Assembly: GCA_903821875.1 (NCBI GenBank)
Contig: CAIJMU010000115.1
Location: 1-64,000 of the forward strand
DNA: 64,000 bases
DNA from: an uncultured Spirochaetota bacterium
GTDB lineage: Bacteria; Spirochaetota; Spirochaetia; Treponematales; Rectinemataceae
Direction: 5' to 3'
Numbering within the stretch: the stretch's first letter is position 1; the number at the start of each line of letters is the position of its first letter. Both the position numbers and the translations under genes were made by a program. This document shows, one piece after another, positions 5,347-54,472 of the stretch. Under the pieces are notes generated by a model that did not search any database, was not told the origin of the DNA, and saw only the letters and a program-made list of their open reading frames with translations.

Positions 5347-8241
5347 TCAGGGGCGCGTAAGTACGAGCATGACCAGCTCGCCCTTTCCGATAAGACTGAG
5401 GGTTCCGGGAGCGCTGAACCTGAGCCAGCTACCCGAAGTTCCGGCGAGGGTAAACCCTGGGGGCAGCCAGGAGATCGGCGAGCCCTCCGCATCGAAGGCT
5501 CGCGCGTACAGGGATCGCGCATAGAGCCAGCCAGAGCCCGCCGCGATGAGGTTGGAGCTGAAGTGCGAGCCGAGGGAGGGAACTGCGCTTTCGGCAGTCA
5601 TGTCAGCGGGCGCCAGATCAAGGACGAGGGTGGCGTTTGCGACGTCCGGGAAAACAAGACTGCCGAAGGGAAGGCCAGGACCCGCAAGGACATAGCCCCT
5701 TCCCTCGGCAGCGATAGCCCGGTCGAGGGCGCGCAGGGCAGGATCGCCCCGCCTGCCCTCCTCTGTCAGACCCTGCGCCTCTGCGCCTGGCTGAAGCACG
5801 ACAATGTCCCTGATCCGCCCTTGGGGAAAGCTCCCGAAAAGCCTTCCCTCGGCCAGAAATTGAGGCTCGGTGGAGGCCGCCGCTGCTTCCAGCGGGGGAG
5901 GGCCGCCTGTGAAGCAGAGCGGCCGCACCTGGAGGATCTCGAGTCTGGGCTTGGCGCTTTCTGACAAGTCAAAGGCGAACTCGATGCTTGCCTGGTTGCC
6001 ATAGGCACGGCCAACCATTCCAAGAAGGTGGTCGAGGGCAGCACAGGCCCCTGAATCATGGAGGGCGGCGAGGACTCTTTTGCCCGCCTCCGTGGCCGAG
6101 GACCGAGATGCGGATTGGGTCGCGGCAGTCTCCGACAGTGGGAGGGAATCTGAGGACTGAGGGTTGCCGGTACCATCAAGGCAGAGAACCGGATAACGGT
6201 CAGGCCAGTCGAGACCGGAGGAGGAGGGCTTTGCGAGCGGCATGAAGATTCCCTTGCCTGCCCCGCTGACCTGGCTGCCGAAGCCCGGACTCAGGGCAAA
6301 GCCGGGACCTGCCCTGTCCAGGCTCGAAAAGGCGATACCCGCCGCTGTCGGCGAGAACCAGATGCCAGTGCGATGCCCGGAGAGCTCCTGCACAACGACA
6401 GCCATCCGCTCCTCCTCGAGCTGGTAACCCGAGGCCTCGATGTGGCTCCGGGACAGCGAGGAGAAGAGACTCGCCCACACCAGCTTGATGCCAGCGAGGA
6501 AGGCAGTGAGCCGCGCTTCGATATCAGGCCCATCATTGGGCAGGAATACTGTTTCATAGGCGCCAGCCATCGGCACCATGACCATGTCTTCGAGGAGTCC
6601 CGAGGATCGGAGGGCCAGGGGTGCATGGCAGGCAGCGAGGAAGCGCCGTGCCGGTTCGAGAAAGCGCCCGGGGAACTCAGAGTGGGCGAAACGATCGGCG
6701 ATGCCGAAGCCCGGTTCCCCGTAGTAGGCCTCGGACCACAGGCCGTTCTTTTCGAGGAACTCCTCGAAGAGGTCAATGCCGATAAAGGCGCTCCTGGGGA
6801 CAGCGATCGAGAGGCCGGGATAATCCTCGTCCAGGCGCTCGGTCTCGACGACCCTCGCGATGAACTCAAGGCCCCTCCCCTTCCCTCCCACCGAGCCGGA
6901 GCCGATCCGCGAAAGGGAACCCGGCAGGGAGTAGATCTCCTCGGCGAACTCAGGCAGGAGACCCTCGGCCTTCTCGAGCCGCACATGGTCCACCACGCGT
7001 ACGAGGAAGCTCCTGATGTCCTCGGAGGAGGCGAAATCGTCGACCCTCATGCCACGCAGGATCGAGGCGAAGCGATACTCGCCGCGGGCCCCGAGCCAGG
7101 TCGAAAAATCGTTGCGCCTGGCGTGCTCGGTTGTACAGGAAGCGGGTACGGACCTGAGGCACTGCGAGAGCTCTTCCATGGTTCTCGCCGTTGCAATGGT
7201 CTTTCCATCCCCGTCCTGGAAGGAAAAGGGACCGAAGCCCAGATGGCTCCGGATGAAATCTCCGAGTTCGTGGGCCAGGGATTCGGAGCTTTTCTCGACA
7301 AAGGACGCACCAATGGCCAGGGCGGTCGCGCGGACACCCGCCTCGCTCGACTGGATCAGGACAGGCAGGTCAGCCTTGCGCGAGCGGGCGAAGCGGGCGA
7401 AGGCAAAGCCTGCCTCGGGATCGAAGCGGCCAGCGCGCATGAAACGGAGGTCGGTGATCAATGCCAGTATCGATCCCTCGTGCCTGGTGAAGGTTGCCTC
7501 GGCCTCCTCGAAGCTTGATGCAAGGAGGATCTTCGGACGGGTGCGTGCGCGGAGGAGGCGGTAGGTCTCGACGCCGCTCTCCTCCTCGATGAGGTCCTGG
7601 GTCTGCTTGAGGAGGATGGAGTAGATCAGTGGCAGGTAACGCGAGTAGTAGCGCACCGAATCCTCGATGAGGAGGATGGCGCGCACGAGGCCCGAGCCTG
7701 TGTCAGCATCGGCGTTGCGGCTGTCCTCGACGTACTTGATCATGCCGACGAGGAGCTTCGAATAGCCGTTCCACACGAAGGTCCTGTCGAAGAAGGCGAA
7801 CTCGGGCCGGGTCGTGTCGAGTTCGGCGAGGGTGGAATTGTTGAGGACAAGGAGGAGGAGTGGCACGGTGGGTGAGCGCGCCCTGAGTTCCATGGCGAGC
7901 CGCAGGGGCCGCTCGACGTCGAGGCCGGCCATGATGATCACGAGGTCGAAGGAACCCGATCCGAAGCGTTCGAGGGCTGATTCCTCGGTGTATGCCGAGG
8001 TGAAGCGAGGCATCGAGGTAAGGTTTAGCCTGGAGTATTCTCCGTACATCTGCTCGGTGAGGAAGCCATCGGCCTCCACGACGAAGGAGTCGTAGAGGCT
8101 GCCGATGATGAGGATTTCGCGGACCCGCCAGCGCATGAGGTCATGGAAGAGGCCACGGTCGCGCCGATCGAGGGCCCAGGAGGAGACGAGCTCGCCGTAC
8201 TGCATGGGCCGATGATACGGCGCGTCCGCCACTCCCCGCAA
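5347..8241 (-). CDS. receiver-like / PEP-synthase ATP-grasp domain protein, paralogue A (degenerate copy)
   Basis: 964 residues from a TTG at 8241 preceded by GGAGG with a 6-base spacer; an in-frame ATG at 8205 has no ribosome site. Two receiver-like folds occupy the first 360 residues. In the second, the IEDS, LITDLRF and LIQSSE strands mimic the acidic pocket, phospho-Asp and Ser of response regulators, with Lys in FVEKSS. From about residue 440 there is a PPDK/PEP-synthase N-terminal (ATP-grasp) domain with SVGGKGRG, LALRSSGLLEDM and ERMAVVVQE. There is no phosphohistidine swivel and no PEP-binding barrel, so ordinary PEP synthase activity is unlikely. The partner's GRWGTRDPWLG segment is missing here (AGPGLPFGSLVFP instead), while GSHF is kept. 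Substrate and role are unknown. It lies 31 bases after paralogue B. Confidence 0.85.
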   Translation of the reverse strand: MRGVADAPYHRPMQYGELVSSWALDRRDRGLFHDLMRWRVREILIIGSLYDSFVVEADGFLTEQMYGEYSRLNLTSMPRFTSAYTEESALERFGSGSFDLVIIMAGLDVERPLRLAMELRARSPTVPLLLLVLNNSTLAELDTTRPEFAFFDRTFVWNGYSKLLVGMIKYVEDSRNADADTGSGLVRAILLIEDSVRYYSRYLPLIYSILLKQTQDLIEEESGVETYRLLRARTRPKILLASSFEEAEATFTRHEGSILALITDLRFMRAGRFDPEAGFAFARFARSRKADLPVLIQSSEAGVRATALAIGASFVEKSSESLAHELGDFIRSHLGFGPFSFQDGDGKTIATARTMEELSQCLRSVPASCTTEHARRNDFSTWLGARGEYRFASILRGMRVDDFASSEDIRSFLVRVVDHVRLEKAEGLLPEFAEEIYSLPGSLSRIGSGSVGGKGRGLEFIARVVETERLDEDYPGLSIAVPRSAFIGIDLFEEFLEKNGLWSEAYYGEPGFGIADRFAHSEFPGRFLEPARRFLAACHAPLALRSSGLLEDMVMVPMAGAYETVFLPNDGPDIEARLTAFLAGIKLVWASLFSSLSRSHIEASGYQLEEERMAVVVQELSGHRTGIWFSPTAAGIAFSSLDRAGPGFALSPGFGSQVSGAGKGIFMPLAKPSSSGLDWPDRYPVLCLDGTGNPQSSDSLPLSETAATQSASRSSATEAGKRVLAALHDSGACAALDHLLGMVGRAYGNQASIEFAFDLSESAKPRLEILQVRPLCFTGGPPPLEAAAASTEPQFLAEGRLFGSFPQGRIRDIVVLQPGAEAQGLTEEGRRGDPALRALDRAIAAEGRGYVLAGPGLPFGSLVFPDVANATLVLDLAPADMTAESAVPSLGSHFSSNLIAAGSGWLYARSLYARAFDAEGSPISWLPPGFTLAGTSGSWLRFSAPGTLSLIGKGELVMLVLTRP

Positions 8242-8272: not shown

Positions 8273-11200
8273 TCACTCCGCTGAGTCCGAGCCCCAGCCG
8301 GTCCCGGCGACCTCGTCCTCAGGGGCTGCGACCTCGCGCCGCGTGCGGAAAACCACCGCCTTCGAGGCCTTGCCGTCCATCACGATGTCCAGGGGAGCCT
8401 CAAGGCGCGTCCACACGCAGTGCTCGGTCTCGCCCCCCCTCGGCGCGGCGCGGAGCCAGTCCCAGTCCACACCACCACGATCGGCACCGCCGCCACTGCC
8501 GGAGCTTCCGCCTTTCCAGGGAATCGTCATATATCCGATATTCATACTTGTTACATTATGGAAGAAGTGCGAGCCCAGCGAGGACTCAACGCGGAAGTCC
8601 TCGAGGTCGGCCTCGACGATCACGCGCGCGTGGGCGATCTGGGAATAGGCCACCGGCACGCCGAGCCAGGGATCACGGGTCCCCCAGCGTCCGAAGCCGA
8701 TGAGGAGGTGGCGCCGGCCCTCGGCGGCGACCCTCCGGTCCAGGCCTTCGATCTCGCGGGCGATATCGCGCGTCTTCGCGCGATCGAAGCGAAGCGGGTC
8801 GATCCAGATGATGTCGGAAACGTCGCCGACGCGGCCGTTGCCCATGCTGCGCTCCGAGGCCAGGAGGTAGCCGTCCTTGGGCAGGGAGTCCAGATCGACA
8901 TCGGCGCCACGGTCGTTCCGGATGAGCGGCTTGAGCTGGAGGATGTAGAAGGCTGGCCTTCCCGTTTCCTCGTCGAGGTTGAGCGCGTACTCTATCTCCA
9001 CGGGCGAGCCCATGGAGCGAGAGCCGATGTCGAGCACGATGTCGATCAGCCTCGCCAGGGGCAGGGCATCGTGCTTGAGGATGTTCGCCAGGTCGATGAA
9101 GCGGAGCCCGGGCGAGGAACAGCCAGGCACGATGCGGTCATTGGCCGGATCCCAGGTCGAGGCCAGGAAGCGGAACTTCGGGTCGTTCTCCGCCTCCTCG
9201 ATGTCCAGCTCCTCGATGGCTGCGTCCTCGCCGGCGCGGAGGTCGGGCCGCGAGCGTTCGAGGTCGATGGCGCGGAAGGAGCGCTGCGAACTATCCCGCA
9301 TGCGCTCGGGCTGCACGACATCGAGCTTCGGGTAGCGCGGGCAGAAACGGTGGCTCGCGCCGCCGTCCACCACCCAGGAGCCCAGGCCAAGAGCCGCGAC
9401 GCAGAGCCCGTCCTCCGGCTTCAGGTAGGAAATGGGGTAATAATTGTAGGATTGCGCAGTGCCCGAGACATGGGGGTAATACCAACGACCTCGGCGGCGG
9501 CCGACGACCTCCTGGAGGACGACAGCCATCCTCTCCTCCTCGCGCTGGTAGCGGGCCACCTCGAAGTAGGACTTGGCCTTCGACGAGAAGAGGCTGGCCC
9601 AGACGAGGCGGATGGCGTCACAGAGCTGACCGAGGCGGACCTCGGGATCGCTGTCGGAATTGGGGATGAGGAGGGTTTCGTAGATGCCCGAGAAGGGCAC
9701 CATCAGCATGTCCTCGAAGAGTCCCGAGGAGCGGACAGCGATGGGACGGTCGGTCGCGAGCACGAAACGCCTGAGCCGCTCTACGAATTCCAGATCGAGG
9801 GGAGAGGCCAGGAAACGCTCGATGACCTCCTCGGGACTGGCCTCGTAGAAGGCGAAGGAGAAGATCCCGTTCACGTCGAGGAAGCGCTCGAACTCATCGA
9901 TGCCGACCAGGGCCGTGCGGGGGATCTTCACATCGATGCCCTCGATCACAGCGCTCAAGTCGAGGTGGTTGATGACGCTCCGTGCAAAGATGAGTCCCCT
10001 CCCCTTTCCCCCCACCGAACCGCTGGCGAGGCGGGTGAAGGAATCGTCGTCGTGGAAGTGGGCTTCGTCGAAGGCGGGAACCGTCCCGCGCGAACGCTCA
10101 TGCCTGATGTCAGAAAGGACCCGCACGATAAAGGCCCTGAGCGCCTCCTCCTCCCCGAAATCGTCGAGGTGGTAGGGCCTGATGATACGGGCGTAGCGCT
10201 GCTCGCCACGCGCGGAGAGCCAGATGGAGAAGTGGTTGTGTTCGGCATGGCGGATGATGATGTCCGGCGGCAGCTCGGCGATCCTCTCGATGAAAGCCTC
10301 CATGTTGCGCGCTTCGGCGACAACCGCGCCGCTGTGGTCACGGAACAGGAAGGGACCGAAGCCGAGGCTGCCCCTGAGGAATTGTCCGAGCTCGTGCTCG
10401 ACCGAGGGGGAGTCACGCCAGAGGAAGGCAGCGCCCAGGTCTTCGACCCGCTGGCGGTCGGCGCGTTCGGCCGACTGGATGACAAAGGGCAGCTCGGGCG
10501 CGCCATCGCGGGCCAGTGACAGGAAACGGAGGCCCGCCTCACGCTCCGTACCGCCCTCGCGCGTGAAATCGATGTCGCTGATGACTGCCAGGAGCTGCGT
10601 GCGATGCCGTTCAAGGATGGCGCTTGCGTGCTCAAAATCGCTGGCCAGGAGGATTTTCGGCCGGGACCGGCTCCGGAGGAGCTTGTAGATGCCGTCGCCG
10701 TTCTCCTCCTCGATGAGGGCCTGGGTCTGGGAAAGGATCACGTGGTACAGGAGGGGGAGGAAGCGGGAGTACTGGCGGACCGACTCCTCGATCAGGAGAA
10801 TGACGCGCACGAGTCCGGTATCGGCGTCGGCACCGGCGTTGAGTAGGTCCTCGACGAATTTCAGCATACCTATGAAGAGCTTGGAATAGCCGTTCCATAC
10901 GAAGACCCGGTCGACGGAGGAGAGGTCCGGACTGGCAGCCTCGATCGAGGAAAGCACCGCATTGTTGACCACCAGGAGGAGGAGGGGCACGTGGGGCAGC
11001 TCGGTCCTGATGCGGTCGGAGGTCTCGACGGCGGGGAGGAAATCGTTGCCTGCCATGACTATGACCGTGTCGAACTCACGTTCGCCGGCGAGCCTCAGGG
11101 CCTCGGCACTGTCCCCTGCGGAGGTGATTCGCGGCGCGGAGTCCAGGTTGAGCCGGAAATACTCGCCGAAGGACTGCTCGACGAAGACCCCGTCAACCTC

Positions 11201-11362
11201 CATGACAAAGCAGTCGTAGTCGCTGCCGACCACGAGGACTTCCCGCACCCTGCGACGCATGAGGTCATGGAAGGCATTCCGCTCGTCCCGCCCCTTGTCC
11301 CATGACCGGACCAATTGATTGAACATGTCGGCCGGGGCGACGGCCTGCGTTGTAGATGGCAT
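8273..11362 (-). CDS. receiver-like / PEP-synthase ATP-grasp domain protein, paralogue B
   Basis: 1029 residues from an ATG at 11362, with AAAGGA about 11 bases upstream. It has the same architecture as the next gene: two tandem receiver-like domains (about residues 25-170 and 185-370; VILLIEES, VISDIDF and VIQSAE strands), a short linker, then a PPDK_N ATP-grasp region from about residue 450 (GSVGGKGRG, IAVRSSGLFEDM, ERMAVVLQE). A conserved C-terminal block follows (LLIGFGRWGTRDPWLGVP and SSLGSHFFHNVTSMN). It lacks the His-carrying and PEP-binding domains of true PPDK/PEP synthase. The Gly-rich tail near residues 950-975 looks like a linker. Similar proteins are usually annotated 'PEP/pyruvate-binding domain protein'; I know of no assigned reaction. 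It lies 39 bases after glyA and is probably co-transcribed with it. Confidence 0.85.
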   Translation of the reverse strand: MPSTTQAVAPADMFNQLVRSWDKGRDERNAFHDLMRRRVREVLVVGSDYDCFVMEVDGVFVEQSFGEYFRLNLDSAPRITSAGDSAEALRLAGEREFDTVIVMAGNDFLPAVETSDRIRTELPHVPLLLLVVNNAVLSSIEAASPDLSSVDRVFVWNGYSKLFIGMLKFVEDLLNAGADADTGLVRVILLIEESVRQYSRFLPLLYHVILSQTQALIEEENGDGIYKLLRSRSRPKILLASDFEHASAILERHRTQLLAVISDIDFTREGGTEREAGLRFLSLARDGAPELPFVIQSAERADRQRVEDLGAAFLWRDSPSVEHELGQFLRGSLGFGPFLFRDHSGAVVAEARNMEAFIERIAELPPDIIIRHAEHNHFSIWLSARGEQRYARIIRPYHLDDFGEEEALRAFIVRVLSDIRHERSRGTVPAFDEAHFHDDDSFTRLASGSVGGKGRGLIFARSVINHLDLSAVIEGIDVKIPRTALVGIDEFERFLDVNGIFSFAFYEASPEEVIERFLASPLDLEFVERLRRFVLATDRPIAVRSSGLFEDMLMVPFSGIYETLLIPNSDSDPEVRLGQLCDAIRLVWASLFSSKAKSYFEVARYQREEERMAVVLQEVVGRRRGRWYYPHVSGTAQSYNYYPISYLKPEDGLCVAALGLGSWVVDGGASHRFCPRYPKLDVVQPERMRDSSQRSFRAIDLERSRPDLRAGEDAAIEELDIEEAENDPKFRFLASTWDPANDRIVPGCSSPGLRFIDLANILKHDALPLARLIDIVLDIGSRSMGSPVEIEYALNLDEETGRPAFYILQLKPLIRNDRGADVDLDSLPKDGYLLASERSMGNGRVGDVSDIIWIDPLRFDRAKTRDIAREIEGLDRRVAAEGRRHLLIGFGRWGTRDPWLGVPVAYSQIAHARVIVEADLEDFRVESSLGSHFFHNVTSMNIGYMTIPWKGGSSGSGGGADRGGVDWDWLRAAPRGGETEHCVWTRLEAPLDIVMDGKASKAVVFRTRREVAAPEDEVAGTGWGSDSAE

Positions 11363-12840: not shown

Positions 12841-12886
12841 AACACATGAACATATGAACTTGTATTCATATGAGCATACATGTGTT
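12841..12886. repeat. two-part inverted repeat between csrA and glyA
   Basis: Outer arms AACACATG (12841-12848) and CATGTGTT (12879-12886) enclose inner arms CATATGAA (12851-12858) and TTCATATG (12865-12872) with a 6-base loop. The A+T-rich palindrome stands out in a G-rich 265-base gap. It could be the terminator of the flagellar operon, although on the minus strand no T-run follows. It could equally be a protein operator. Confidence 0.7.
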
Positions 12887-12950
12887 TTGGCGGGGGGGCG
12901 CGGGCGGCGGGGCGGGGGCGGGTATCCTGAGGGTGGCCTCCCGGGCCAGC

Positions 12951-13163
12951 CTACAGCGGCAGGTCCGGCAGTGCCACTGCACCGGCGACCGCGGCGGTGT
13001 TCTCCACCCGTATCGCGTCGTAGACTTCCTGGCGGTATACCTTCACCTTCTTGGGAGCCTCGATGCCGATCTTCACAAGATCCCCGCGCACCTCGACTAC
13101 GGAGATCACGATATCGTCGCCGATGACGATCTTTTCGTTGACGCGGCGCGAGAGTATCAGCAT
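12951..13163 (-). CDS. csrA: carbon storage regulator CsrA
   Basis: 70 residues, starting [18 protein letters not shown], the CsrA/RsmA signature. The conserved strand region [20 protein letters not shown] and a variable Ala-rich tail follow. CsrA is a homodimeric RNA-binding protein that blocks translation at GGA motifs near ribosome sites; in flagellated bacteria it controls flagellin and related mRNAs. Its ATG overlaps the fliW stop codon (TGATG), so the antagonist FliW and CsrA are translationally coupled. Confidence 0.97.
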
Positions 13164-13609
13164 CAGGTAGCGCTCTTCGATGCGGCGAGTTCAGCCATGA
13201 TGTCGTGCTTGACGCGCCAGCGGGTGTCCCCGAGGACTGCCTGCATGCCCGTGCGGCTCGCCCGCGAAATGATTAGCGGACCGAGGAGATTGGCGGTGAT
13301 GGGGCTGCCGTCCTGGGGGACGGTTACGATGGTAAAGACAATGGCGTCCACAGGATCGTCGATGCCGAACTCCGACAGGAGCTCGTCTGGAAGGTCGAGG
13401 GAATAGTCGGGGCGGAAAAGGAAGGGGTCGATGAGGGCAAAGGCAAGCTCAGGCAGCTCCAGCGACTGGAGGTAGTAGAAGGGTTTCTGCTTTGCGTCCA
13501 GGAGTGCCCATCGGGTGAATTTGGCAAAGCCCGGCAGTCCTGCGGGGAAGGTGACGAGCTGGCGCTCGTCGACTTCTATCTCGCCATAGGCCTTGGAGTT
13601 CACACGCAT
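13163..13609 (-). CDS. fliW: flagellar assembly factor FliW
   Basis: 148 residues. Hallmarks are the [20 protein letters not shown] segment, [20 protein letters not shown] in the middle, and [20 protein letters not shown] near the C-terminus. FliW binds CsrA and flagellin in a three-way switch that couples flagellin synthesis to secretion. Start ATG at 13609. It directly precedes csrA and overlaps it by one base, and follows flgL by 57 bases. Confidence 0.96.
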
Positions 13610-13666
13610 TTCACTGTCCCCTCTCTAAGTGTCTGGTTCAACGCTTCCCGTGCGTCCATGCCGCGC

Positions 13667-14977
13667 CTACCTGAGGAAATCAAGCAGGGTCTGCGGGAAC
13701 ATGCGCCCCGCGAAGCCGAGGCTCGCCTTGTGGGCATAGTCGAGCATGCGGTAGTCGGTCACCGCCTTGGTGATGTCGAGATCGGTCTCGGCCGACAGGA
13801 GTCGCGTCGCGTCGGGGATCTCCTTGTTAAGCCGCGCGGCGATAAAGTCGAGGCGTTCGCTCCTGGCGCCGATCTCCGTGGCACGCCGCGTGAGGTTCTC
13901 GAGCCCTGAGTCGATGCCGGCAAGGGCGAGGCCTCCGGTCTCCAGGACATCGCCCTTGTTGAGCGAATCGCGCAGCCGGATGACGACATCGAAAAGCGAG
14001 CCCCCGCTCGAGCGCGCCGAGGGCGCGAGGTTGTCGGGTACGCGGCCACCGGGGACGATGACGCCAAGCTGGGACAGGGGACCCGACCTTTCACCAGTCC
14101 TTCCGTCAGAAACGGCAGGAGCGGCTCCGTCTGCACCGGCAGTGCCCGCAGTGCCAGCGAGGTCTTCGAGGCGCATCTGGTGGGGAATGGTCGCCTCGAG
14201 CATCAGCGAGAATCTCCTGGGGTCGATGCTGGCGCGTACCGCCGCCCCGGAGTCGTTGATCTTGGCCACGAGGGCCTGCACCGTATCTCCGGCCTTGACC
14301 TCGATCTTGATGCCGTCAACCGCGATGGAGCTGTCGGCTCCGGCACGCCAGTCGCGCGCATCGAAGCCCGAGGCCACCTGCTGCCTCTCTGCCCAGAAGA
14401 TATCCGTGCCTGGCTGCCTGAGCGCAATGGTCGTGCCCTCGGAAACCTCGGAGCGGGCCCCGTTGTAGCCCCCCTGGTATTGCACGCCGGTGACCCCCTC
14501 GGTGCCGGTGCCGACAGCCGTGCCCAACACCGTCCGGTAGGGCTCGGTCCTCGAAGCATCGCCTGCAAAGAGGAAGGTCCCGTCCGGCGAACGGGCATTG
14601 GCCAGGGAGACCAGTTCGTTGAGGAGCTGGTCCACCTCGACTCCAATGGCCTTGCGGTCATCGCTGGTATAAGTCCCGTTGGCGCCCTGGACCGCCAGCT
14701 CGCGGATGCGCTGCATCACGTCGACGGCGCTTCGCACATAGCCCTCGGTCACCTTGGTCTGGTCGGCTGCCGCCTGGGTATTGGTTTCATAGCGCTTGAG
14801 GCGCTCCACCACCGAGTCGTAGCGTACCGCGCGCGCGGCCCCGAGGGGATCGTCGCGGAGCTTCTCGATCTTCTGCTGCGTGGCCATCCGCGTCTCGAGG
14901 CTGGCCATGTCGCGCTCGTTCCGGCGGAGCCAGAACTGCATGTCGTTGTTCATCAGGTCAGAACTTACCCGTCTCAT
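13667..14977 (-). CDS. flgL: flagellar hook-filament junction protein 3 (HAP3)
   Basis: 436 residues, ATG at 14977. The N-terminus is flagellin-like: MRRVSSDLMNNDMQFWLRRN is followed by heptad-rich helices (ETRMATQQKIEKLRDDP, VERLKRYETN) and a typical GANGTYTSDDRKAI stretch. The C-terminal helices are ENLTRRATEIGARSERLDF and LSAETDLDITKAVTDYRML. It forms the junction between FlgK and the flagellin filament in the periplasmic flagellum. It is secreted through the flagellar type III apparatus. Confidence 0.95.
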   Translation of the reverse strand: MRRVSSDLMNNDMQFWLRRNERDMASLETRMATQQKIEKLRDDPLGAARAVRYDSVVERLKRYETNTQAAADQTKVTEGYVRSAVDVMQRIRELAVQGANGTYTSDDRKAIGVEVDQLLNELVSLANARSPDGTFLFAGDASRTEPYRTVLGTAVGTGTEGVTGVQYQGGYNGARSEVSEGTTIALRQPGTDIFWAERQQVASGFDARDWRAGADSSIAVDGIKIEVKAGDTVQALVAKINDSGAAVRASIDPRRFSLMLEATIPHQMRLEDLAGTAGTAGADGAAPAVSDGRTGERSGPLSQLGVIVPGGRVPDNLAPSARSSGGSLFDVVIRLRDSLNKGDVLETGGLALAGIDSGLENLTRRATEIGARSERLDFIAARLNKEIPDATRLLSAETDLDITKAVTDYRMLDYAHKASLGFAGRMFPQTLLDFLR

Positions 14978-15014
14978 CGTGTCCCCCGGCTATTCAGCCA
15001 ATTGGTCATTTCCA

Positions 15015-16901
15015 TCAGGTCATCTTGTTGATGATGGTGTCGAGCATCTCGTTCATGACAGTCATGAACTTCGCGGAAGCGGCGTAGCCGTGCTGGAACT
15101 TGATCATCTCGGCGAGTTCCTCGTCCATGTTGACACCTGATATGGACTGGCGGAGGTCGCGGAGGTCCTTGCCGATGCGGTCGTGGCTCTGCATGGCGCG
15201 CTGTGCCCGCTCGCCCTCGAGTCCGACGCGGGAAACCGCCTCGGCAAAGTGGTCGTCAAAGGTGCGCTGGCTGCCGACCATGACGGCCTTCGTGCGGAGC
15301 GAAGCCATGGCGATGGCGGCCGAACCGTCACCGGGGGCTGCAGGCTTGCCGTTCTCTCCGAAACCCGCGGCGATGGAGCCGGGATCGGACTTGATGGCCG
15401 CGCTTACCTCGAGCCAGCCCGCAGGATGGGACAGGGGCGCGACGGCAAAATCCTTCGCTCCGATGGACAGGACATTGGCAGCGTCCGCTCCCCCCCAGTC
15501 GAAGGCAGCGGCAGGTCCGCTCGACTTGAGGAGTCCCGCATAGCCGGCCAGGAAGCGGCCGGAGTCCTCGACGTGGCGGATGACAAAATCAGGGTTGTCG
15601 GCCCCGCCGGAATCAGCGCCAGAGGCGGGAGTGCCGCGGAGTTCGAGGTGACCGGTCCGGTCGAGGCGGGCCGTCACCTCCGCTCCGGAGTGGTTGATGC
15701 GGCTGACGACGTCGGCGACGGTGTCGGTCGGGTTGTAACGCAGCGTCACCGGACCGTCCTTGCCGGAGAGGGTGAGGGTCCCGGCAAGACCCAGGAGGGC
15801 CTGCCCGTCGAGGCTGTTGCTCCCCGACATGCGGTAGAGCATGGTCGAGTCGAATTTCCCGTCACCGTTCCTGTCATAATTGCCCGCGATGTCATTGACC
15901 GCAGGGAACTCTGAGAAAAAGTCGAGGCCGGTCTTTCCGTTGAGGCCATAGGCTGCCCTGTGGGTCTCGTTCACGAGGTCGGAAAACGAGAGCGCCAGGG
16001 TATCGAGGGTCTGCACTTCCTTTTTTACGTCGCCGTCGCGGAGTTCCACGAGGGCGCCAAGGGTCCCCCCCTTCGCGCTGAAGGCCAGGCCGGTTTCCTT
16101 CCACACAGGATGGGCAAAGCCGTTCTCGTCCGCCCCGGCGAGGGCCAGATCGCGGGACTTCCCCCCCTGTACGATGACAAGACCTTCCACATGGAGCATG
16201 TATTCGTCGCCATCGCGCTTGTCGACACTGACCGGCACGAGTTTTGCGAGCTTCTCCGCCAGGAGGTCGCGCCTGTCCATGAGGTCGTTGGGATTGTCGC
16301 CCATGGCCTGGGACTTGACGATCTCGGCGTTCACGGTCGCGATTTCCCGGGCGATGCCGTTGACCTGCTCGACCGTCCCCCTGAGGTCTCCATCGATGGC
16401 GGAGCGGAGATCGGTGAGGCGACGGTAGCGGTCGCGCATGCCCTCTGCGAGGGCCTCTCCACGGGAAACGACCGCCTCGCGCGCGGAGCTGTCCTCGGGA
16501 CGCTGAGCGAGTTCCTGCCAGGATCCCCAGAACTTGTCCATCAGGGTCCTGACGGAGGAGTCGCTCGGCTCGTTATGGATATCCTCAAGGGCGAGGAGGT
16601 TCTTGTCGCGGGTGCTCCAGTAACCCTCGAAGCCCGACTCACCGATGATCCTCCCGTCAAGGAGCCCATCGCGGATCCGTTCGATGCGTTCGATGTTGAC
16701 ACCCTGCCCGATCTGGCCGGGAGTGGTCTCTCGGTTGGCCTCGGGGGCGTAGAGGGGCTGGGCGGCAGAAAGATCGACCCGTTGCCGGGAGTAGCCTTCG
16801 GTGGAGGCGTTAGTCAGGTTGTGGCCGATGGTGAGAAGGCCCTGGTTGTGAGCGCCGATGCCGCGCTTTGCGATCTCTATACCCGAAAATGCCGATTGCA
16901 T
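15015..16901 (-). CDS. flgK: flagellar hook-associated protein 1 (HAP1)
   Basis: 628 residues from an ATG at 16901. The N-terminal signature is conserved (GIEIAKRGIGAHNQGLLTIGHNLTNASTEGYSRQRV), and so is the C-terminal helical end (GVNMDEELAEMIKFQHGYAASAKFMTVMNEM). It joins hook to filament. The leader between flgN and flgK carries four GGA triplets in about 30 bases, including two ATAGGA units that overlap the ribosome site. That is the pattern expected of a CsrA target. Confidence 0.96.
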   Translation of the reverse strand: MQSAFSGIEIAKRGIGAHNQGLLTIGHNLTNASTEGYSRQRVDLSAAQPLYAPEANRETTPGQIGQGVNIERIERIRDGLLDGRIIGESGFEGYWSTRDKNLLALEDIHNEPSDSSVRTLMDKFWGSWQELAQRPEDSSAREAVVSRGEALAEGMRDRYRRLTDLRSAIDGDLRGTVEQVNGIAREIATVNAEIVKSQAMGDNPNDLMDRRDLLAEKLAKLVPVSVDKRDGDEYMLHVEGLVIVQGGKSRDLALAGADENGFAHPVWKETGLAFSAKGGTLGALVELRDGDVKKEVQTLDTLALSFSDLVNETHRAAYGLNGKTGLDFFSEFPAVNDIAGNYDRNGDGKFDSTMLYRMSGSNSLDGQALLGLAGTLTLSGKDGPVTLRYNPTDTVADVVSRINHSGAEVTARLDRTGHLELRGTPASGADSGGADNPDFVIRHVEDSGRFLAGYAGLLKSSGPAAAFDWGGADAANVLSIGAKDFAVAPLSHPAGWLEVSAAIKSDPGSIAAGFGENGKPAAPGDGSAAIAMASLRTKAVMVGSQRTFDDHFAEAVSRVGLEGERAQRAMQSHDRIGKDLRDLRQSISGVNMDEELAEMIKFQHGYAASAKFMTVMNEMLDTIINKMT

Positions 16902-16926
16902 GTCCTATCTCCTATGGTCCGTCCGC

Positions 16927-17421
16927 CTAGAGGGCGGTGTTCACAAGGATCGCGTCGTGTCCCGGGTGGACGACCCTGCCCGACTTCCCGTAGATATTCC
17001 CCTTTTTCTCGGGGAAAAGTTCTTCAAGCACTGTGCCGAGGAGGCTGCGGCTCGCGGCCGCATAGTCGCCGAGGCTGCCGTTCTCGAGGCGTACCCGCAT
17101 GGCCGAGATCCTGAGTCTTCGATGGAGGTCCGTGAGCCTCGTCCGTTCCGGTTCGGAAATCGCCATGGCGATTTCGAGGATCCCTTCACGCTCGAGGCCG
17201 AGATCGAGACGCATGAAGGACTCTGCGGTGATTCGGTCGGCCTCTACCCTGCTGATTTCCCTGGACCGCTCCTCGAGGGCTTCCATCGCCCTCGTGAGCC
17301 CCGGCCAATCCCGGCTTTCGAGGGCCTGGGCAAACTTGCGCTGCGCTTCAATGCAGTTGTCGAAGGCTTCAGCCTCCCGTTCCATCGCTGTCATCAGGGT
17401 CTCGAGCTTCTCGTGGGCCAT
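16927..17421 (-). CDS. flgN: FlgN-like flagellar export chaperone
   Basis: 164 residues from an ATG at 17421 with GGAG eight bases upstream; longer readings run through promoter sequence and are not credible. It is almost wholly alpha-helical and charged (HEKLETLMTAMEREAEAFDN, ALEERSREISRVEADRI), as in the FlgN/YvyG family. FlgN chaperones FlgK and FlgL. Placement directly upstream of flgK-flgL supports the assignment; sequence conservation in this family is weak. Confidence 0.82.
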   Translation of the reverse strand: MAHEKLETLMTAMEREAEAFDNCIEAQRKFAQALESRDWPGLTRAMEALEERSREISRVEADRITAESFMRLDLGLEREGILEIAMAISEPERTRLTDLHRRLRISAMRVRLENGSLGDYAAASRSLLGTVLEELFPEKKGNIYGKSGRVVHPGHDAILVNTAL

Positions 17422-17444
17422 TCCGGGTACTCCTTCACTTTGGA

Positions 17445-17470
17445 ATATCGGAAGGCACAGACAGTATTTG
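17445..17470 (-). promoter_or_regulatory. candidate flagellar sigma28 promoter of the flgN-flgK-flgL-fliW-csrA operon
   Basis: On the minus strand CAAA (17470-17467) precedes TCCGATAT (17452-17445) with 14 bases between. The sigma28 consensus is TAAA, about 15 bases, then GCCGATAA. It is a partial match. The predicted start lies about 15-20 bases upstream of the flgN ATG, leaving room for its ribosome site. Confidence 0.45.
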
Positions 17471-17504
17471 AGGGAAAAGCGGGGAAAGGGCACTGCAGCT
17501 CCCG

Positions 17505-17533
17505 TTGTCCCTTGCCCCCTCGCCGGATATAGT
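17505..17533 (+). promoter_or_regulatory. sigma70 promoter directly abutting the P-loop/Asp23 gene
   Basis: TTGTCC (17505-17510), a 17-base spacer, then TATAGT (17528-17533). The start codon of the next gene is at 17542, so transcription should begin within about 0-3 bases of the ATG. No ribosome site precedes that ATG. Confidence 0.6.
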
Positions 17534-17541
17534 GAGCACAC

Positions 17542-18411
17542 ATGTTCAGGTTCATACGGGAAGCCATCTGGGCCCTCAAAGGCGTGCGGGTCTACGCCCT
17601 CGTCGGCGAAAGCGGTACCGGCAAGAGCTTCAGGGCCAAGCTGGTCGCCCAGAAATACGGCATCGAGATGATCATCGATGACGGGCTCCTTATCGGTGGG
17701 GATGTCATCATCGCCGGGAAGTCGGCCAAAAAGGAACAGGTCTTCATGACCGCAGTCAAGACTGCCCTCTTCCACGAAAAGGCCCATCGGGACGATGTAG
17801 CGCGGGCCCTCGACCGAGAGCGCTTCCGGAAGATCCTCGTGATAGGAACGAGCGATCGCATGGTCAGGAAGATCTGCGAGCGTCTCCAGATTCCCCATCC
17901 GGGCAAGATCATCAAGATCGAGGACATCGCTTCGAAGATGGATATCGAAAAGGCTGTCCGTTCACGCCAGGTCGAGGGGAAGCACGTCATTCCCGTCCCT
18001 GCCCTCGAGATCCGCAAGGCCTACCCGACCATTTTCTACGATTCCATCCGGGTCTTCCTCAGGCGGAGTTTCGGCAGCGCACCCGCCCGGCCTAAGCTCT
18101 ACGAGAAATCCGTAGTCCGGCCTGAGTACGCCAAGCGCGGCCGCGTCGTGATCTCCGAGGCTGCACTCTCCCAGATGGTCATCCATTGCGTCGACGAATT
18201 CGACAAGGCCCTCCACGTGCGCAAACTCAACATCAGAACGGATTCCCAAGGCTACCGCCTCACCATCGTCCTCGAGGTTCCCTTCGGGGCGCGGATAGCC
18301 AGTGACGCGAGGGCCCTCCAGGAATATGTCATAGAGAACCTCGAGCGCTTCACAGGGATACTCATCGAAGAAGTGACGATAATCATCGATCGCTTCTCGC
18401 CCTCAAAATGA
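17542..18411 (+). CDS. P-loop NTPase with C-terminal Asp23/Gls24-like domain
   Basis: 289 residues, divergent from the flagellar operon. Residues 15-30 hold a Walker A (VGESGTGKS), followed by an ATPase-like region with LVIGTSDRM and a MIIDDGLLIGG segment. The C-terminal 110 residues (from about RGRVVISEAALSQMVIHCV to IENLERFTGILIEEVTIII) resemble the Asp23/Gls24 (DUF322) fold, which in other bacteria occurs as small envelope-stress or membrane-associated proteins. Fusion of the two is unusual. No ribosome site is visible and the promoter suggests a leaderless mRNA. A 7-bp CGCCCTC/GAGGGCG hairpin spans the stop codon (18398-18416). The function is unknown. Confidence 0.75.
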   Translation: MFRFIREAIWALKGVRVYALVGESGTGKSFRAKLVAQKYGIEMIIDDGLLIGGDVIIAGKSAKKEQVFMTAVKTALFHEKAHRDDVARALDRERFRKILVIGTSDRMVRKICERLQIPHPGKIIKIEDIASKMDIEKAVRSRQVEGKHVIPVPALEIRKAYPTIFYDSIRVFLRRSFGSAPARPKLYEKSVVRPEYAKRGRVVISEAALSQMVIHCVDEFDKALHVRKLNIRTDSQGYRLTIVLEVPFGARIASDARALQEYVIENLERFTGILIEEVTIIIDRFSPSK

Positions 18412-27638: not shown

Positions 27639-27947
27639 CTAGCTTTTCTTCCTGCCCGCGGGCCTGCGGTCGAAGACCACGAGCCAGGCATCGGCGCTGC
27701 GGTCGATGCTGTCGCGGTAGCGGATAACCTGTCCGAGCCCCTCGGTCACCGTTGTAGCCCGACCGTCGCCGGAATGCACGAGCTTGATCTCGACGATGGA
27801 CCAGTGACTGCTGAACAGCACAGCTAGATCCATGCGGCCGCGGTCGGCGGCGTACTCGCGCTCGATGCCGCCCCCGCCGTTTACCACGCGCTGCAAAAAG
27901 GCCATAAGCAGGAGGTGGGGAAAGGCTTGAAAAGGTCTCGTCAACAT
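27639..27947 (-). pseudogene. C-terminal remnant of an AAA-ATPase / PD-(D/E)XK nuclease-like protein
   Basis: The 102-codon frame encodes only the C-terminal nuclease-like domain seen at the end of AAA-ATPase-like (PF09820/PDDEXK) proteins: HLLLMAFLQRVVNGGGGIER, GRMDLAVLF, VEIKL and WLVVFDRR. The D...E.K catalytic arrangement is visible. The roughly 400-residue ATPase part is absent, and the same frame has stop codons directly upstream. I read it as a truncated relic. Confidence 0.75.
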
Positions 27948-28440
27948 GCTGGGCTATCAGGCTGCGGACATCAGCGGCGGAAAACGAGGGCGGGACAAGG
28001 CGCGGCGTGGGGAGGGGAAACGGGCATCCTTACAACCCGGTGACGCTGTTCCTCATGGTAGTGCTTCTCCAAGGGGCATCGCAGACAGGATTTCAAGGCG
28101 TCTCTCAAGTGAAGTCTCCAGTATATTATATTTAGGTAACGTTCGGACCTTACGAAGATCGCTGTTGAGCAACCCGCGCAGCGGCTTGGCCGATTGCATC
28201 CCTAAATTCCTGGCTCTTGCCCTTTGCCGGTCACCAATCCAGCTTGTACCATACATTGAAGAGGGCGAAGCTATCTATATCTACAGTTCGTGAAATCAGA
28301 CGGCGGAAGGGCACCCGTCTTGTGCTATCTTTAATAGAAGATGCAGGACTTCCACGGATCAACCAGGGAGCCAAAAAGTGCGCTCCCGGTTCGATTCGGG
28401 CCGGGAACACAGGGTCGCGCGTAGGCTGTGGAGGAAACGA
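27948..28440. other. intergenic stretch with no supported gene
   Basis: 493 bases of mixed composition between the nuclease remnant and the sensor kinase. Short frames on both strands show no family I recognise. The part after about 28100 is noticeably richer in A+T than the flanks. A segment near 28395-28420 resembles a tRNA T-arm but has no matching D-arm, anticodon arm or acceptor stem. Confidence 0.5.
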
Positions 28441-30318
28441 TTGAGAACAGCGCGAATTGTCTACCCAATTAAAGTCATTGCGCTCTCGGCAGTATTATTC
28501 TGCGCCATCTTATATATCAGCAACTCCATAAACAGCATTTCTCCAAGCCATGCCTTTGTCCTCAAACTCAATGCCAACGGAATTGCGGACATTCCGGACG
28601 CAGAATGGGAATCACTCAAGGAACCGGTCGTCGTTCTTCCTCAATTGGATATTCCTACCGTAGTCCGCGTGAACGAGCTGACGCTATTGACAAGGGGCAG
28701 CACTGGAGAACACGGCACAAACCGTACGTTTTGGGTTTCACTGACGGAAATACCCCCGGAACTACTGGACCCGGTCTCAAAAACATACCCAAAAGTCGAG
28801 ATAATCCAGTACAAGAAGCCCGGAGAACCTGCCCCGCAGATCCCGCCGATATACCTGGGCGAGCGAAAAAACGAAGCCTTTGTCGTATTTTTGCGAAATT
28901 TCCTCAACTACAAGCTCCCTTCCGCGCTGGGGGTGGCATCCCTGATCATGGGAATAGGAGCTTTTTTCATCTTCCTGAGGAGGAAGGATAAAAGCAAAAA
29001 CAGCTATTTCTTTTTTTCCCTTGTCAACGCAGGTTCATTTCTCTTTCTGACCAACATCATCTTTGCCTGGGATATGCTACCCACCATGACCTCGGAAATG
29101 GTCCGTATTTCCGGAATGATCCTCTGGATTACAGCAATGCTTTCCTTCATTCTTGAAATAAAAGAACCCGGCAAATGGTCATGGATTGGACTTGTCAGCT
29201 GCCTTGTCGTGTATATCCCGGCAGCCATATGGACATTTTCGGCAGCCACCTCCTCCGAACTGTATCAACGCATGCTCATGAGCATTTCAAAGATCAACGA
29301 TATCGTATCCCTTCTCGTCCTTGTGTTCGCCATAATTACTGAAGTCAGCATTCCTGGTTCCCGGAGCAGGTCGCTGCTTGCTGTGGTAATCACGATCAGC
29401 GCAATCATCATAGGCGAAAACCGGTTCCTGGCCCAAACCGGATATCTTCCGCCCTTCCATCTTGTCCCGTATATTGTCTTCCCGACCATCGGGGTTTTCT
29501 TCTATCTCATCATGGATGCCGAGATAAGGTCGCACCTTCTTGTTGTCAAACAGGGCAAGGAATTGATGGCTCTCAATCAAAGCATGGACAGGCAAATTGC
29601 AGAACAGACACGTGAGCTACGCACAAGCCTTCGTGCCAAGGAAATGTTCCTGACTGTCCTAACGCATGACATGAAAAACCAGCTCTATGACAACTACATT
29701 CTCGTCAAGGGTCTAATTTCCCAGTATAAGGAAGACAGGCAATCAGAGGAATATTTATCTCTTTTGCAGGAGAATTCGGTCGAGAATTTCATACTTCTCG
29801 AAGACCTACTTAACTGGTCCAACATTGCAGGATCCATTACAAATCCAAGTATCATATACAGGGAAGTGGCATCACTTGTCGACATAGTCTTCAGCACACT
29901 CAATTCGGTGGCTACCGTAAAGGGCATACATATGCTCAATGCGGTTCCCAAAGACCTCCGTGTCCCCTACGATCGGGAAATGACTTTGACAATCATCAGG
30001 AATCTGCTTTCGAATGCCCTGAAGGTCACAGAGAAGGGCGGAACCATGAAGGTGTCCGGTGGGGTGGATGCAGATTCTGCCTTCCTGGAAATCTCGGATA
30101 CCGGTCCGGGCTTTCCCCTGGAAATGCAGGACCCCTTTGATTTCGAGACGAACAAAAGACCTGGTCTCGGACTTTTGATAGTCAGGGACTTCGCCAAACT
30201 CCAGAACATGACGCTCAGGATGCACAGGTCACAGGAGGGAAGAACCAATATCCTTTTGCGTTTCAAGGCAGCAGCGCCGGTCGAAGATGACGCTGACAGG
30301 AAAGATCCCGTCACATAG
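28441..30318 (+). CDS. 7TM sensor histidine kinase, copy 1 (lower G+C)
   Basis: 625 residues from a TTG at 28441 with GGAGG six bases upstream; a GTG at 28378 would add 21 residues with no ribosome site. An N-terminal membrane anchor (VIALSAVLFCAILYI) is followed by an extracytoplasmic domain of about 130 residues, then about seven membrane helices (about 160-390), the 7TMR-DISM-like plan. The kinase core has the phospho-acceptor in VLTHDMKNQL (H409), the N box NLLSNALKVTEKGG, DTGPGFP, and GLGLLIVRDFAKL. A close paralogue is encoded at 54444-56222. Its regulator is read from the opposite strand, 119 bases beyond its stop. Base composition is near 50% G+C by eye, well below its neighbours. Confidence 0.88.
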   Translation: MRTARIVYPIKVIALSAVLFCAILYISNSINSISPSHAFVLKLNANGIADIPDAEWESLKEPVVVLPQLDIPTVVRVNELTLLTRGSTGEHGTNRTFWVSLTEIPPELLDPVSKTYPKVEIIQYKKPGEPAPQIPPIYLGERKNEAFVVFLRNFLNYKLPSALGVASLIMGIGAFFIFLRRKDKSKNSYFFFSLVNAGSFLFLTNIIFAWDMLPTMTSEMVRISGMILWITAMLSFILEIKEPGKWSWIGLVSCLVVYIPAAIWTFSAATSSELYQRMLMSISKINDIVSLLVLVFAIITEVSIPGSRSRSLLAVVITISAIIIGENRFLAQTGYLPPFHLVPYIVFPTIGVFFYLIMDAEIRSHLLVVKQGKELMALNQSMDRQIAEQTRELRTSLRAKEMFLTVLTHDMKNQLYDNYILVKGLISQYKEDRQSEEYLSLLQENSVENFILLEDLLNWSNIAGSITNPSIIYREVASLVDIVFSTLNSVATVKGIHMLNAVPKDLRVPYDREMTLTIIRNLLSNALKVTEKGGTMKVSGGVDADSAFLEISDTGPGFPLEMQDPFDFETNKRPGLGLLIVRDFAKLQNMTLRMHRSQEGRTNILLRFKAAAPVEDDADRKDPVT

Positions 30319-30437
30319 CTTGGCGGAAGCATGTAGTGATCGTCCGGGACAGCAGGTGCCGGTGCTGTTGAAGAAACGCCTTATGAGGCAAGTAAAGTGC
30401 CTCGAAGCTGGTACAATTGAGTTTCAGGAAGAGGGAT

Positions 30438-31082
30438 TCAGCGTGCGCCTGCAAGCCCTCTCATGGTAGCCCAGCTGGAAAGTTCGGCTGCATTGCTGAC
30501 TCCCGCCTTTTCCAATAGAGAAGAACGGTGCCGATCGATGGTCTGGACTGACAAGGCCAAGCGAAAGGCGATTTCTTTGGAACTAAGGCCATCTGTAATC
30601 ATGACAAGAACATCGCGCTCCCGAGGAGTAATCTGCAGCTTGCCACTCTGCGCTGCGGCATTCCCGACAAAGTCCGGAACCATGATCCCCATCAGTGAGG
30701 GGCTGAGATAGCGCCCTCCGGCAATTACCAAGCGGATTGCTGTAGCAAGCTCATCGGTATCGGCCAAGCCCTTGGAGACAATACCCTCAGCCCCAGTCTG
30801 CAAAAATGAACGCAGGGTCTCCCTATCCGTGCTGAAGGTAAATCCGATTACCTTCAGTTCCGGCATCAACTCCTTGAGCATTCTCGCCACTGTGACGCCA
30901 TCGGGTTGACCGATCGCCAGATCCAAAAGGACGATGTGTACCTGCAACTGGGGAATCAATTCCAGTGCCTGCGATCCGGACTCGGCTTCTCCAACCAGAA
31001 CCACATCCGGCATTGAGGAAAGAATGGACTTGACGCCGGTACGCACGATTTTGTGGTCGTCGCAGATGAATACCCGATACAT
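30438..31082 (-). CDS. NarL/FixJ-family response regulator, copy 1
   Basis: 214 residues, ATG at 31082 with AAGGA six bases upstream. Receiver with DD at residues 8-9, phospho-Asp D54 (IVLLDLAIG), Thr81 and Lys103 (VSKG). The C-terminal LuxR-type HTH has TPRERDVLVMITDGLSSKEI and TIDRHRSSLLEKA. Equal in length and closely similar to the regulator at 53828-54472. It is convergent with the sensor kinase at 28441-30318, which is the likely partner by analogy with the second pair. Confidence 0.9.
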   Translation of the reverse strand: MYRVFICDDHKIVRTGVKSILSSMPDVVLVGEAESGSQALELIPQLQVHIVLLDLAIGQPDGVTVARMLKELMPELKVIGFTFSTDRETLRSFLQTGAEGIVSKGLADTDELATAIRLVIAGGRYLSPSLMGIMVPDFVGNAAAQSGKLQITPRERDVLVMITDGLSSKEIAFRLALSVQTIDRHRSSLLEKAGVSNAAELSSWATMRGLAGAR

Positions 31083-31690: not shown

Positions 31691-32596
31691 TTATACATAG
31701 TCAGCCCGATACTCGTCGATCGTCGTGTAGCCGAGTGTTTCATACAGGGCGAGGGCCGCAGCGTTCGTCTTTTTCACGAAGAGGGCAGTACCCCGGCCTT
31801 CGGCGCCCAGGCGGGCGATGAGGAAGTCCATCATCTTTCGCGCGATGCCCCTGCCCCGGAACCCGGGCAGCACGAAGACACCACCGATCTGGTCAATTGT
31901 GAAGGCCCTGGCGTTCGTGCCGGCCTTGCCCAGAATTTCCATCCCGCCACGCGGCCCCTTGCCGCTGGCCTTTGCGATGAACTCTGTCCTGAGCATGCGC
32001 GATAGCCAGGCGCGCGAGGCCTCGGCGTCGAAGACATGCAGGGGAATGATGACCTCCTCGAGCTCGTAGGCCTTCTGCAGGGGCACGAGGGCCTCGAGGT
32101 CGCCGGGGCCTGCGCGCTCGACGCGGAGGGACCCGATGGTAGCAGGGTGGGAATGCTCTGGCGCGACGCTCCGCGCGGCGGAAAGCGCCATGAGCCTGTA
32201 GTCGACCTTCCAGGCTGGACTGAGGCGTAATGCGGCCTCGAAGGCAGACACCGAGCCTGCCGGCCCGGTTACAGTTGCGGGGGGATTGCCCGCGACGCCG
32301 AGAACGCCTCGGAAAACAGGTTCAAGGAGGCGGGCCAGTCCCGGAAGGTCGGCATCGGCATTGGGTAACTGGGGGTAAAAAGCCCCTCCGGCGAGGCCCA
32401 GGATAGCGGCTTCGACAGGAGCCTCTCCCTCTGTCCCGGCCCTGATCCAGACCCCGGAGCGCGCATCGAGGGGGAGGCTGAGCCTCCCCTTCCAGAGGAG
32501 CTTTGCGATGAAGGAGGCGGCATAGGTCTCGCGCGAGCGGAGGAAGTGCTCGAGCTGGGGCAGGTCGCGGGCACCGGCCTTAACCCACTCGCTCAT
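31691..32596 (-). CDS. GNAT-family N-acetyltransferase
   Basis: 301 residues. The C-terminal half is a GNAT domain with the acetyl-CoA binding motif GVFVLPGFRGRGIARKMM and a following NAAALALYETLGYTTIDEY. The N-terminal 150 residues (HFLRSRETYAASFIAKLLWK) form a second, GNAT-like or unique domain. The substrate is unknown. Its ATG overlaps the stop codon of the upstream GH3 gene (ATGA), so the two are translationally coupled. Confidence 0.85.
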   Translation of the reverse strand: MSEWVKAGARDLPQLEHFLRSRETYAASFIAKLLWKGRLSLPLDARSGVWIRAGTEGEAPVEAAILGLAGGAFYPQLPNADADLPGLARLLEPVFRGVLGVAGNPPATVTGPAGSVSAFEAALRLSPAWKVDYRLMALSAARSVAPEHSHPATIGSLRVERAGPGDLEALVPLQKAYELEEVIIPLHVFDAEASRAWLSRMLRTEFIAKASGKGPRGGMEILGKAGTNARAFTIDQIGGVFVLPGFRGRGIARKMMDFLIARLGAEGRGTALFVKKTNAAALALYETLGYTTIDEYRADYV

Positions 32597-53827: not shown

Positions 53828-54472
53828 ATGTATCGACTGATGCTCTGCGATGACCACCAGATTGTCCGGCACGGCCTACGGACCCTCCTTTCAAGCCTCC
53901 CTGACATCACTGTCGTCGGGGAGGCTGCCTCGGGGAGCGAGGCCCTCGCCATGGTCGAGCGCGAGCGCCCTGACATCCTTGTCCTGGACATCTCCATCGG
54001 CGACCCCGATGGAATTACCGTAGCCCGGCTCGTCAAGGAACGTTCGCCACGGGTGACCATCATCGGCTTTTCGTTCATCGGCGAGGCTGAACTGCTCCGC
54101 TCCTTCCTGCGGACGGGGGCAGAATGCTTTGTCCACAAGGGGCCTGGGGACATGGATGAACTCATTGATGCAGTAAAGGCTGTCAGGGCGGGAGGAACCT
54201 ACCTCAGCCCCGCCCTCATTCCGATGCTGATGCCTGACTTCCTGACCCATGGACAGGGCAAGTCCAAGGCCGAATCACTGACCACCCGCGAAAGGGATAT
54301 CCTGGCCATGGTGGTGCGCGGCCTGAGCTCCAAGGAAATCGCGTCCTTCCTGGGGATATCCATCAAGACCATCGAGCGCCACCGCTCCTCGCTCCTGATC
54401 AAGGCCCAGGTTAAAAATTCGGCCGACCTGGTGCGCTGGGCAATTACGATGAAACTGGTGGATCCTGCCTGA
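53828..54472 (+). CDS. NarL/FixJ-family response regulator, copy 2
   Basis: 214 residues from an ATG at 53828 (GAGG eight bases upstream). Receiver with DD at 8-9, D54 (ILVLDISIG), Ser81 and Lys103 (VHKG). LuxR-type HTH: TRERDILAMVVRGLSSKEIA and IKTIERHRSSLLIKA. It matches the regulator at 30438-31082 along its whole length. Its 3' end overlaps the opposing sensor kinase gene by 29 bases. The 177 bases after murB contain no other gene; a TATACC element near 53695 is a weak promoter candidate. Confidence 0.92.
   Translation: MYRLMLCDDHQIVRHGLRTLLSSLPDITVVGEAASGSEALAMVERERPDILVLDISIGDPDGITVARLVKERSPRVTIIGFSFIGEAELLRSFLRTGAECFVHKGPGDMDELIDAVKAVRAGGTYLSPALIPMLMPDFLTHGQGKSKAESLTTRERDILAMVVRGLSSKEIASFLGISIKTIERHRSSLLIKAQVKNSADLVRWAITMKLVDPA

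Follow-up and report, generated by a model that had tools for sequence, protein, structure and literature searches.

Cognate two-component genes are almost always co-directional, and a sensor kinase gene and a response regulator gene that converge at two deeply diverged loci therefore make a case for asking whether the balance between such partners needs operon coupling. In a survey of complete genomes, two-component neighbours less than 200 bp apart were found on the same rather than on opposite strands at a ratio of more than 15:1, the authors described the encoding of interdependent proteins in trans as very rare, and false pairing under 200 bp was estimated at less than 2.5% (PMC3018481). 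Two convergent pairs of this kind occur in the window, i.e., the whole stretch of 64,000 nt from an uncultured Spirochaetota bacterium that was analysed here; an earlier note on this DNA had read them as a duplicated locus with a conserved layout that implies convergent transcription or antisense coupling of the partners. The features of the two pairs and of the surroundings of pair 1 are as follows.

27642 to 27947, minus strand: PDDEXK_9 nuclease-domain fragment (23.7 bits, just below the cut-off of 25.5) with no full gene around it; adjoins pair 1.
28441 to 30318, plus strand: HK1, sensor kinase with a signal-anchor, a periplasmic domain of about 115 aa, 7 TM helices, a coiled linker, a HisKA-like DHp (HDMKNQL), and HATPase_c with a short ATP lid.
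30319 to 30437: gap of pair 1, 119 nt from stop codon to stop codon, with weak terminator-like hairpins on both strands that are not above chance.
30438 to 31082, minus strand: RR1, NarL/FixJ-type response regulator of 214 aa with D54, K104, and a GerE HTH.
31691 to 32596, minus strand: GNAT gene, which marks a conserved neighbourhood; its 3' neighbours in relatives are a dapF-like gene and rnhB, here RR1 and HK1.
53828 to 54472, plus strand: RR2, NarL/FixJ-type response regulator of 214 aa, 53% identical to RR1.
54444 to 54472: overlap of pair 2, 29 nt, RR2 and HK2 tail to tail; confined to the C-terminal tails and not conserved in pair 1.
54444 to 56222, minus strand: HK2, sensor kinase with a signal peptide, a periplasmic domain, 7 TM helices, a HisKA-like DHp (HDLRNQL), and HATPase_c; 32% identical to HK1.

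The tail-to-tail arrangement of HK1 with RR1 and of RR2 with HK2, including the 29-nt overlap in pair 2, was thus borne out as the earlier note had described it; an alternative start for HK1, a GTG at 28378, also has a good Shine-Dalgarno sequence. Within the host genome (4.68 Mb), 32 of 37 kinase matches have a receiver domain within 1.5 kb, and the receiver is on the same strand in 29 of these 32, a count that includes hybrid proteins (in many cases kinase and receiver are in one protein), and convergent in only three, two of which are pairs 1 and 2. That the convergent pairs in this genome are more than chance is confirmed. The third convergent site (G000:C126:12068-13553) encodes a short CheY-like receiver protein, and its kinase and receiver families differ from those of both pairs.

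Both regulators have all features of NarL/FixJ response regulators, namely a receiver and a GerE HTH (the Pfam families Response_reg and GerE are over cut-off in both) as well as the conserved D and K. Alignment of RR1 and RR2 (53% identity over 209 aa, E 1e-80) supported the equal length of 214 residues and the common D54 that had been noted before, with one correction: the shared lysine, previously placed at K103, is K104. D54 and K104 are also invariant with RcsB, and the phospho-sites are intact in kinases (His box) and regulators (D54) alike. HK1 and HK2 share 32% identity over 573 aa (E 1e-101), and the identities by module, i.e., 42% for the periplasmic part, 27% for the 7TM part, 28% for DHp, and 34% for CA, agree with the earlier observation that the kinases are alike in their periplasmic, 7TM, and kinase-core parts. 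Conservation is highest in the periplasmic part (42%, compared to 27% for the 7TM part), which suggests that the two sensors may respond to related signals. Hydropathy profiles place 7 TM segments in each kinase after the periplasmic domain, which itself follows an N-terminal signal or anchor. HATPase_c was matched well over the Pfam cut-off of 26.4 bits (HK1, 46 bits; HK2, 60.5 bits), but neither kinase reached the cut-off for Pfam HisKA (HK2, 16.3 vs. 26.9; HK1, no match); the phosphoacceptor-His boxes HDMKNQL and HDLRNQL nevertheless align with the HDLRGP and HDLKNP boxes of related kinases. Two peculiarities are common to HK1 and HK2, an ATP lid region shortened by about 11 residues and HDxxNQL where a box of the HDxxNPL type is usual. 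Neither kinase contains a receiver or Hpt domain by Pfam, which makes both simple kinases. An AlphaFold model of HK1, computed with HK2 as the only other alignment row, had a mean pLDDT of 45.9 and was rejected as a query for fold search.

A conflict between the trees of kinases and regulators, named in the earlier note as evidence that would count against its reading, was not seen, as both join the same two loci: HK1 and HK2 are joined in a tree of 37 kinase cores with support of 100/99, and RR1 and RR2 in a tree of 11 regulator rows with moderate support of 88/78. Because the trees agree and the layout is shared, the pairs can be regarded as homologous as units, and descent of both from one ancestral convergent pair appears the most likely origin. 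The split between HK1 and HK2 is old, since at 2.14 and 1.35 changes per site their branches are far longer than those of recent same-genome paralogues in the same tree (e.g., 0.17 and 0.12). A tandem duplication is seen elsewhere in the window, where the adjacent large minus-strand genes at 5347-8241 and 8273-11362 share 39% identity over roughly 1000 aa.

Outside the host, neither pair was matched at E<=1e-30 in the one other genome of the genus (91% complete), and none of 394 genomes of the order or 350 genomes of the phylum showed the same architecture, in searches that scored three candidates per genome and could hence miss weak relatives. The sole near-full-length match in the order sample was a hybrid kinase (G023; 22-25% identity) with receivers and an Hpt of its own, accompanied by one kinase-core match; four further kinase matches in the phylum sample are limited to the core with, at most, a portion of the 7TM region. 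A scan of 84,980 species genomes for conserved peptides yielded two matches, both to the kinase core only. Among plasmids, 383 records matched but none covered 80% of HK1, the best among the matches listed covering 43-52% at 24-29% identity, and viral contigs gave no match. The layout called conserved in the earlier note was thus seen at two loci of a single genome and nowhere else in the genomes searched. That note had set against its own reading the finding of such kinases in co-directional operons with unrelated regulators, a pattern which was seen in half: in two family genomes, G026 and G069, the closest regulators are of the NarL/FixJ type and lie in co-directional operons with unrelated HisKA_3 kinases, and no NarL-type regulator converges on the closest kinases outside the host. 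When the sensor part only was used as a query, distant relatives were detected in 26 further genomes of the order and also in others of the phylum, with MCP, guanylate-cyclase, GGDEF, SpoIIE-like, kinase, and PAS-LuxR outputs among those examined (some named by eye from sequence). In one such relative (L091:4617-6605), the sensor module is joined to PAS and to an HTH of the LuxR type, which apparently makes it a membrane-bound transcription factor.

The two pairs differ in composition and setting. The genes of pair 1 have a GC content of 0.484 and 0.544 vs. 0.623 for the window, and their GC3 z-scores relative to the other window genes are -4.9 and -4.2 vs. -0.9 and -0.8 for pair 2; in codon usage they are the two most deviant of 33 window genes, with RR2 third but far below them. 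Pair 1 also stands at a synteny breakpoint. The GNAT gene of eight family genomes, the one other member of the genus among them, is adjoined by a dapF-like gene and rnhB on the side that pair 1 occupies here, and neither of these two genes was detected in the window or in the remainder of its contig. The gene block at 12870-17898 is inverted relative to the GNAT-GH3 block when compared to four family genomes, and the genes at 31.7-42 kb, between the pairs, are in conserved family order. The PDDEXK_9 fragment next to HK1 appears to be a breakpoint remnant, and the search for transposon-marking repeats flanking either pair found only short, chance-like ones.

With moderate confidence, we propose that the two loci represent two ordinary, separately promoted two-component systems that derive from one convergent pair, with pair 1 probably acquired horizontally at a rearrangement breakpoint. 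The horizontal origin of pair 1 is suggested by composition and synteny, and no donor was found in the genomes searched; pair 2 is most likely older in this genome or ameliorated to it. A less probable but still plausible account is an in-lineage (inverted) duplication in an ancestor, after which the copies stayed within 24 kb of each other but disappeared from sister lineages, and the composition of pair 1 drifted. This account stays alive because the pairs are only 24 kb apart, for which two independent insertions have a chance of about 1% and which favours a linked origin; it also fits that each locus is the other's nearest relative in the trees and that neither pair occurs in the other genomes searched. 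It must, however, accommodate a GC3 of pair 1 that is 4-5 sd under its neighbours next to a normal pair 2, the great age implied by 32% kinase identity, the conserved family order of the intervening genes, and the position of pair 1 at a breakpoint. A recent local duplication in this genome is unlikely given the depth of the split, the foreign composition of pair 1 next to the normal one of pair 2, and the position of pair 1 at the synteny breakpoint. The duplication of the whole locus assumed previously can therefore be retained insofar as the pairs are homologous as units, but finds no support as a simple event in this genome.

It is considerably more doubtful that the convergent layout itself is the mechanism, with overlapping convergent transcripts or antisense RNA tuning kinase vs. 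regulator. While the layout has been kept over deep divergence, pair 2 has a 29-nt overlap, and opposite-strand neighbours are rare both generally (PMC3018481) and in this genome, the genes of pair 1 lie 119 nt apart, the numbers of terminator-like matches (6 and 4, compared to shuffle expectations of 4.3 and 2.9) are near the shuffle mean, and RNA fold z-scores of -0.7 to +0.8 reveal no unusual structure. With overlap in only one pair and both terminator-like matches and RNA structure at chance, the proposed antisense coupling of the partners is left unsupported. We give just as little weight to a small two-component family whose tail-to-tail arrangement selection has maintained across deep divergence and a probable horizontal transfer because convergent transcription helps to tune the circuit. 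Least credible of all is that kinase and regulator are chance neighbours rather than partners, as might be argued from the operons with HisKA_3 kinases in two family genomes and from the nearest kinases without a converging NarL-type regulator, since a kinase and a regulator of these two families adjoin each other in one and the same orientation at both of the diverged loci, which are joined in both trees, and published false pairing under 200 bp is below 2.5% (PMC3018481).

Under the preferred reading of two separately promoted systems, a signal would be met at the periplasmic domain of the sensor kinase and passed via the 7TM part and the linker to the DHp/CA core; the kinase would then phosphorylate the NarL/LuxR-type regulator of the convergent gene in a predicted cognate transfer, and the phosphorylated regulator would bind DNA. 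None of the genes shares its upstream region with another, and each presumably has a separate promoter, which would allow sensor and regulator to be expressed independently; a search for a promoter or operator motif shared upstream of the four genes gave nothing convincing. The convergent layout would accordingly be architecture and not mechanism, and the biology of a sensor kinase and its regulator is itself ordinary.

Among known systems, RcsC of the enterobacterial Rcs phosphorelay is a hybrid kinase that acts through the Hpt domain of RcsD, and HK1 and HK2, having neither receiver nor Hpt, differ from this combination of hybrid kinase and Hpt partner. The Rcs genes nevertheless provide a precedent for the layout with the same regulator class, i.e., a GerE/LuxR-type regulator gene that converges with a sensor kinase gene: in E. 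coli MG1655, rcsB (plus strand) and rcsC (minus strand) converge with 199 bp between them, and the two have been described as convergently transcribed (PMC7241856). HK1 and HK2 resemble 7TMR-DISM sensors (PF07695/PF07696) in the combination of a periplasmic domain with a 7TM module and in the varied outputs among distant relatives in the phylum, but the 7TM part of HK1 scores 21.1 bits vs. a cut-off of 29, HK2 has no PF07695 match (HisKA_7TM, 15.9 vs. 28.6), and the periplasmic part of neither matches a DISMED family of Pfam (DISMED1 or DISMED2). Judged by sequence, their sensor is 7TMR-DISM-like, yet fails the Pfam thresholds for membership; adjacent genes elsewhere in the host genome (G000:C24:4928-7416) encode two 7TMR-DISM proteins that do pass the Pfam cut-off. 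RR1 and RR2 share their architecture with the NarL/FixJ regulators that lie in operons with HisKA_3 kinases, the kind to which their nearest relatives in G026 and G069 belong, but each is paired with a HisKA-like 7TM kinase encoded on the other strand. A 7TMR-DISM-like sensor kinase thus adjoins a regulator of the NarL type, while the closest relatives of that regulator go with a different class of kinase, which points to a likely exchange of partners. Convergent sensor-regulator layouts are rare and already known; here, the uncommon layout is real at two deeply diverged loci, and its components are ordinary.
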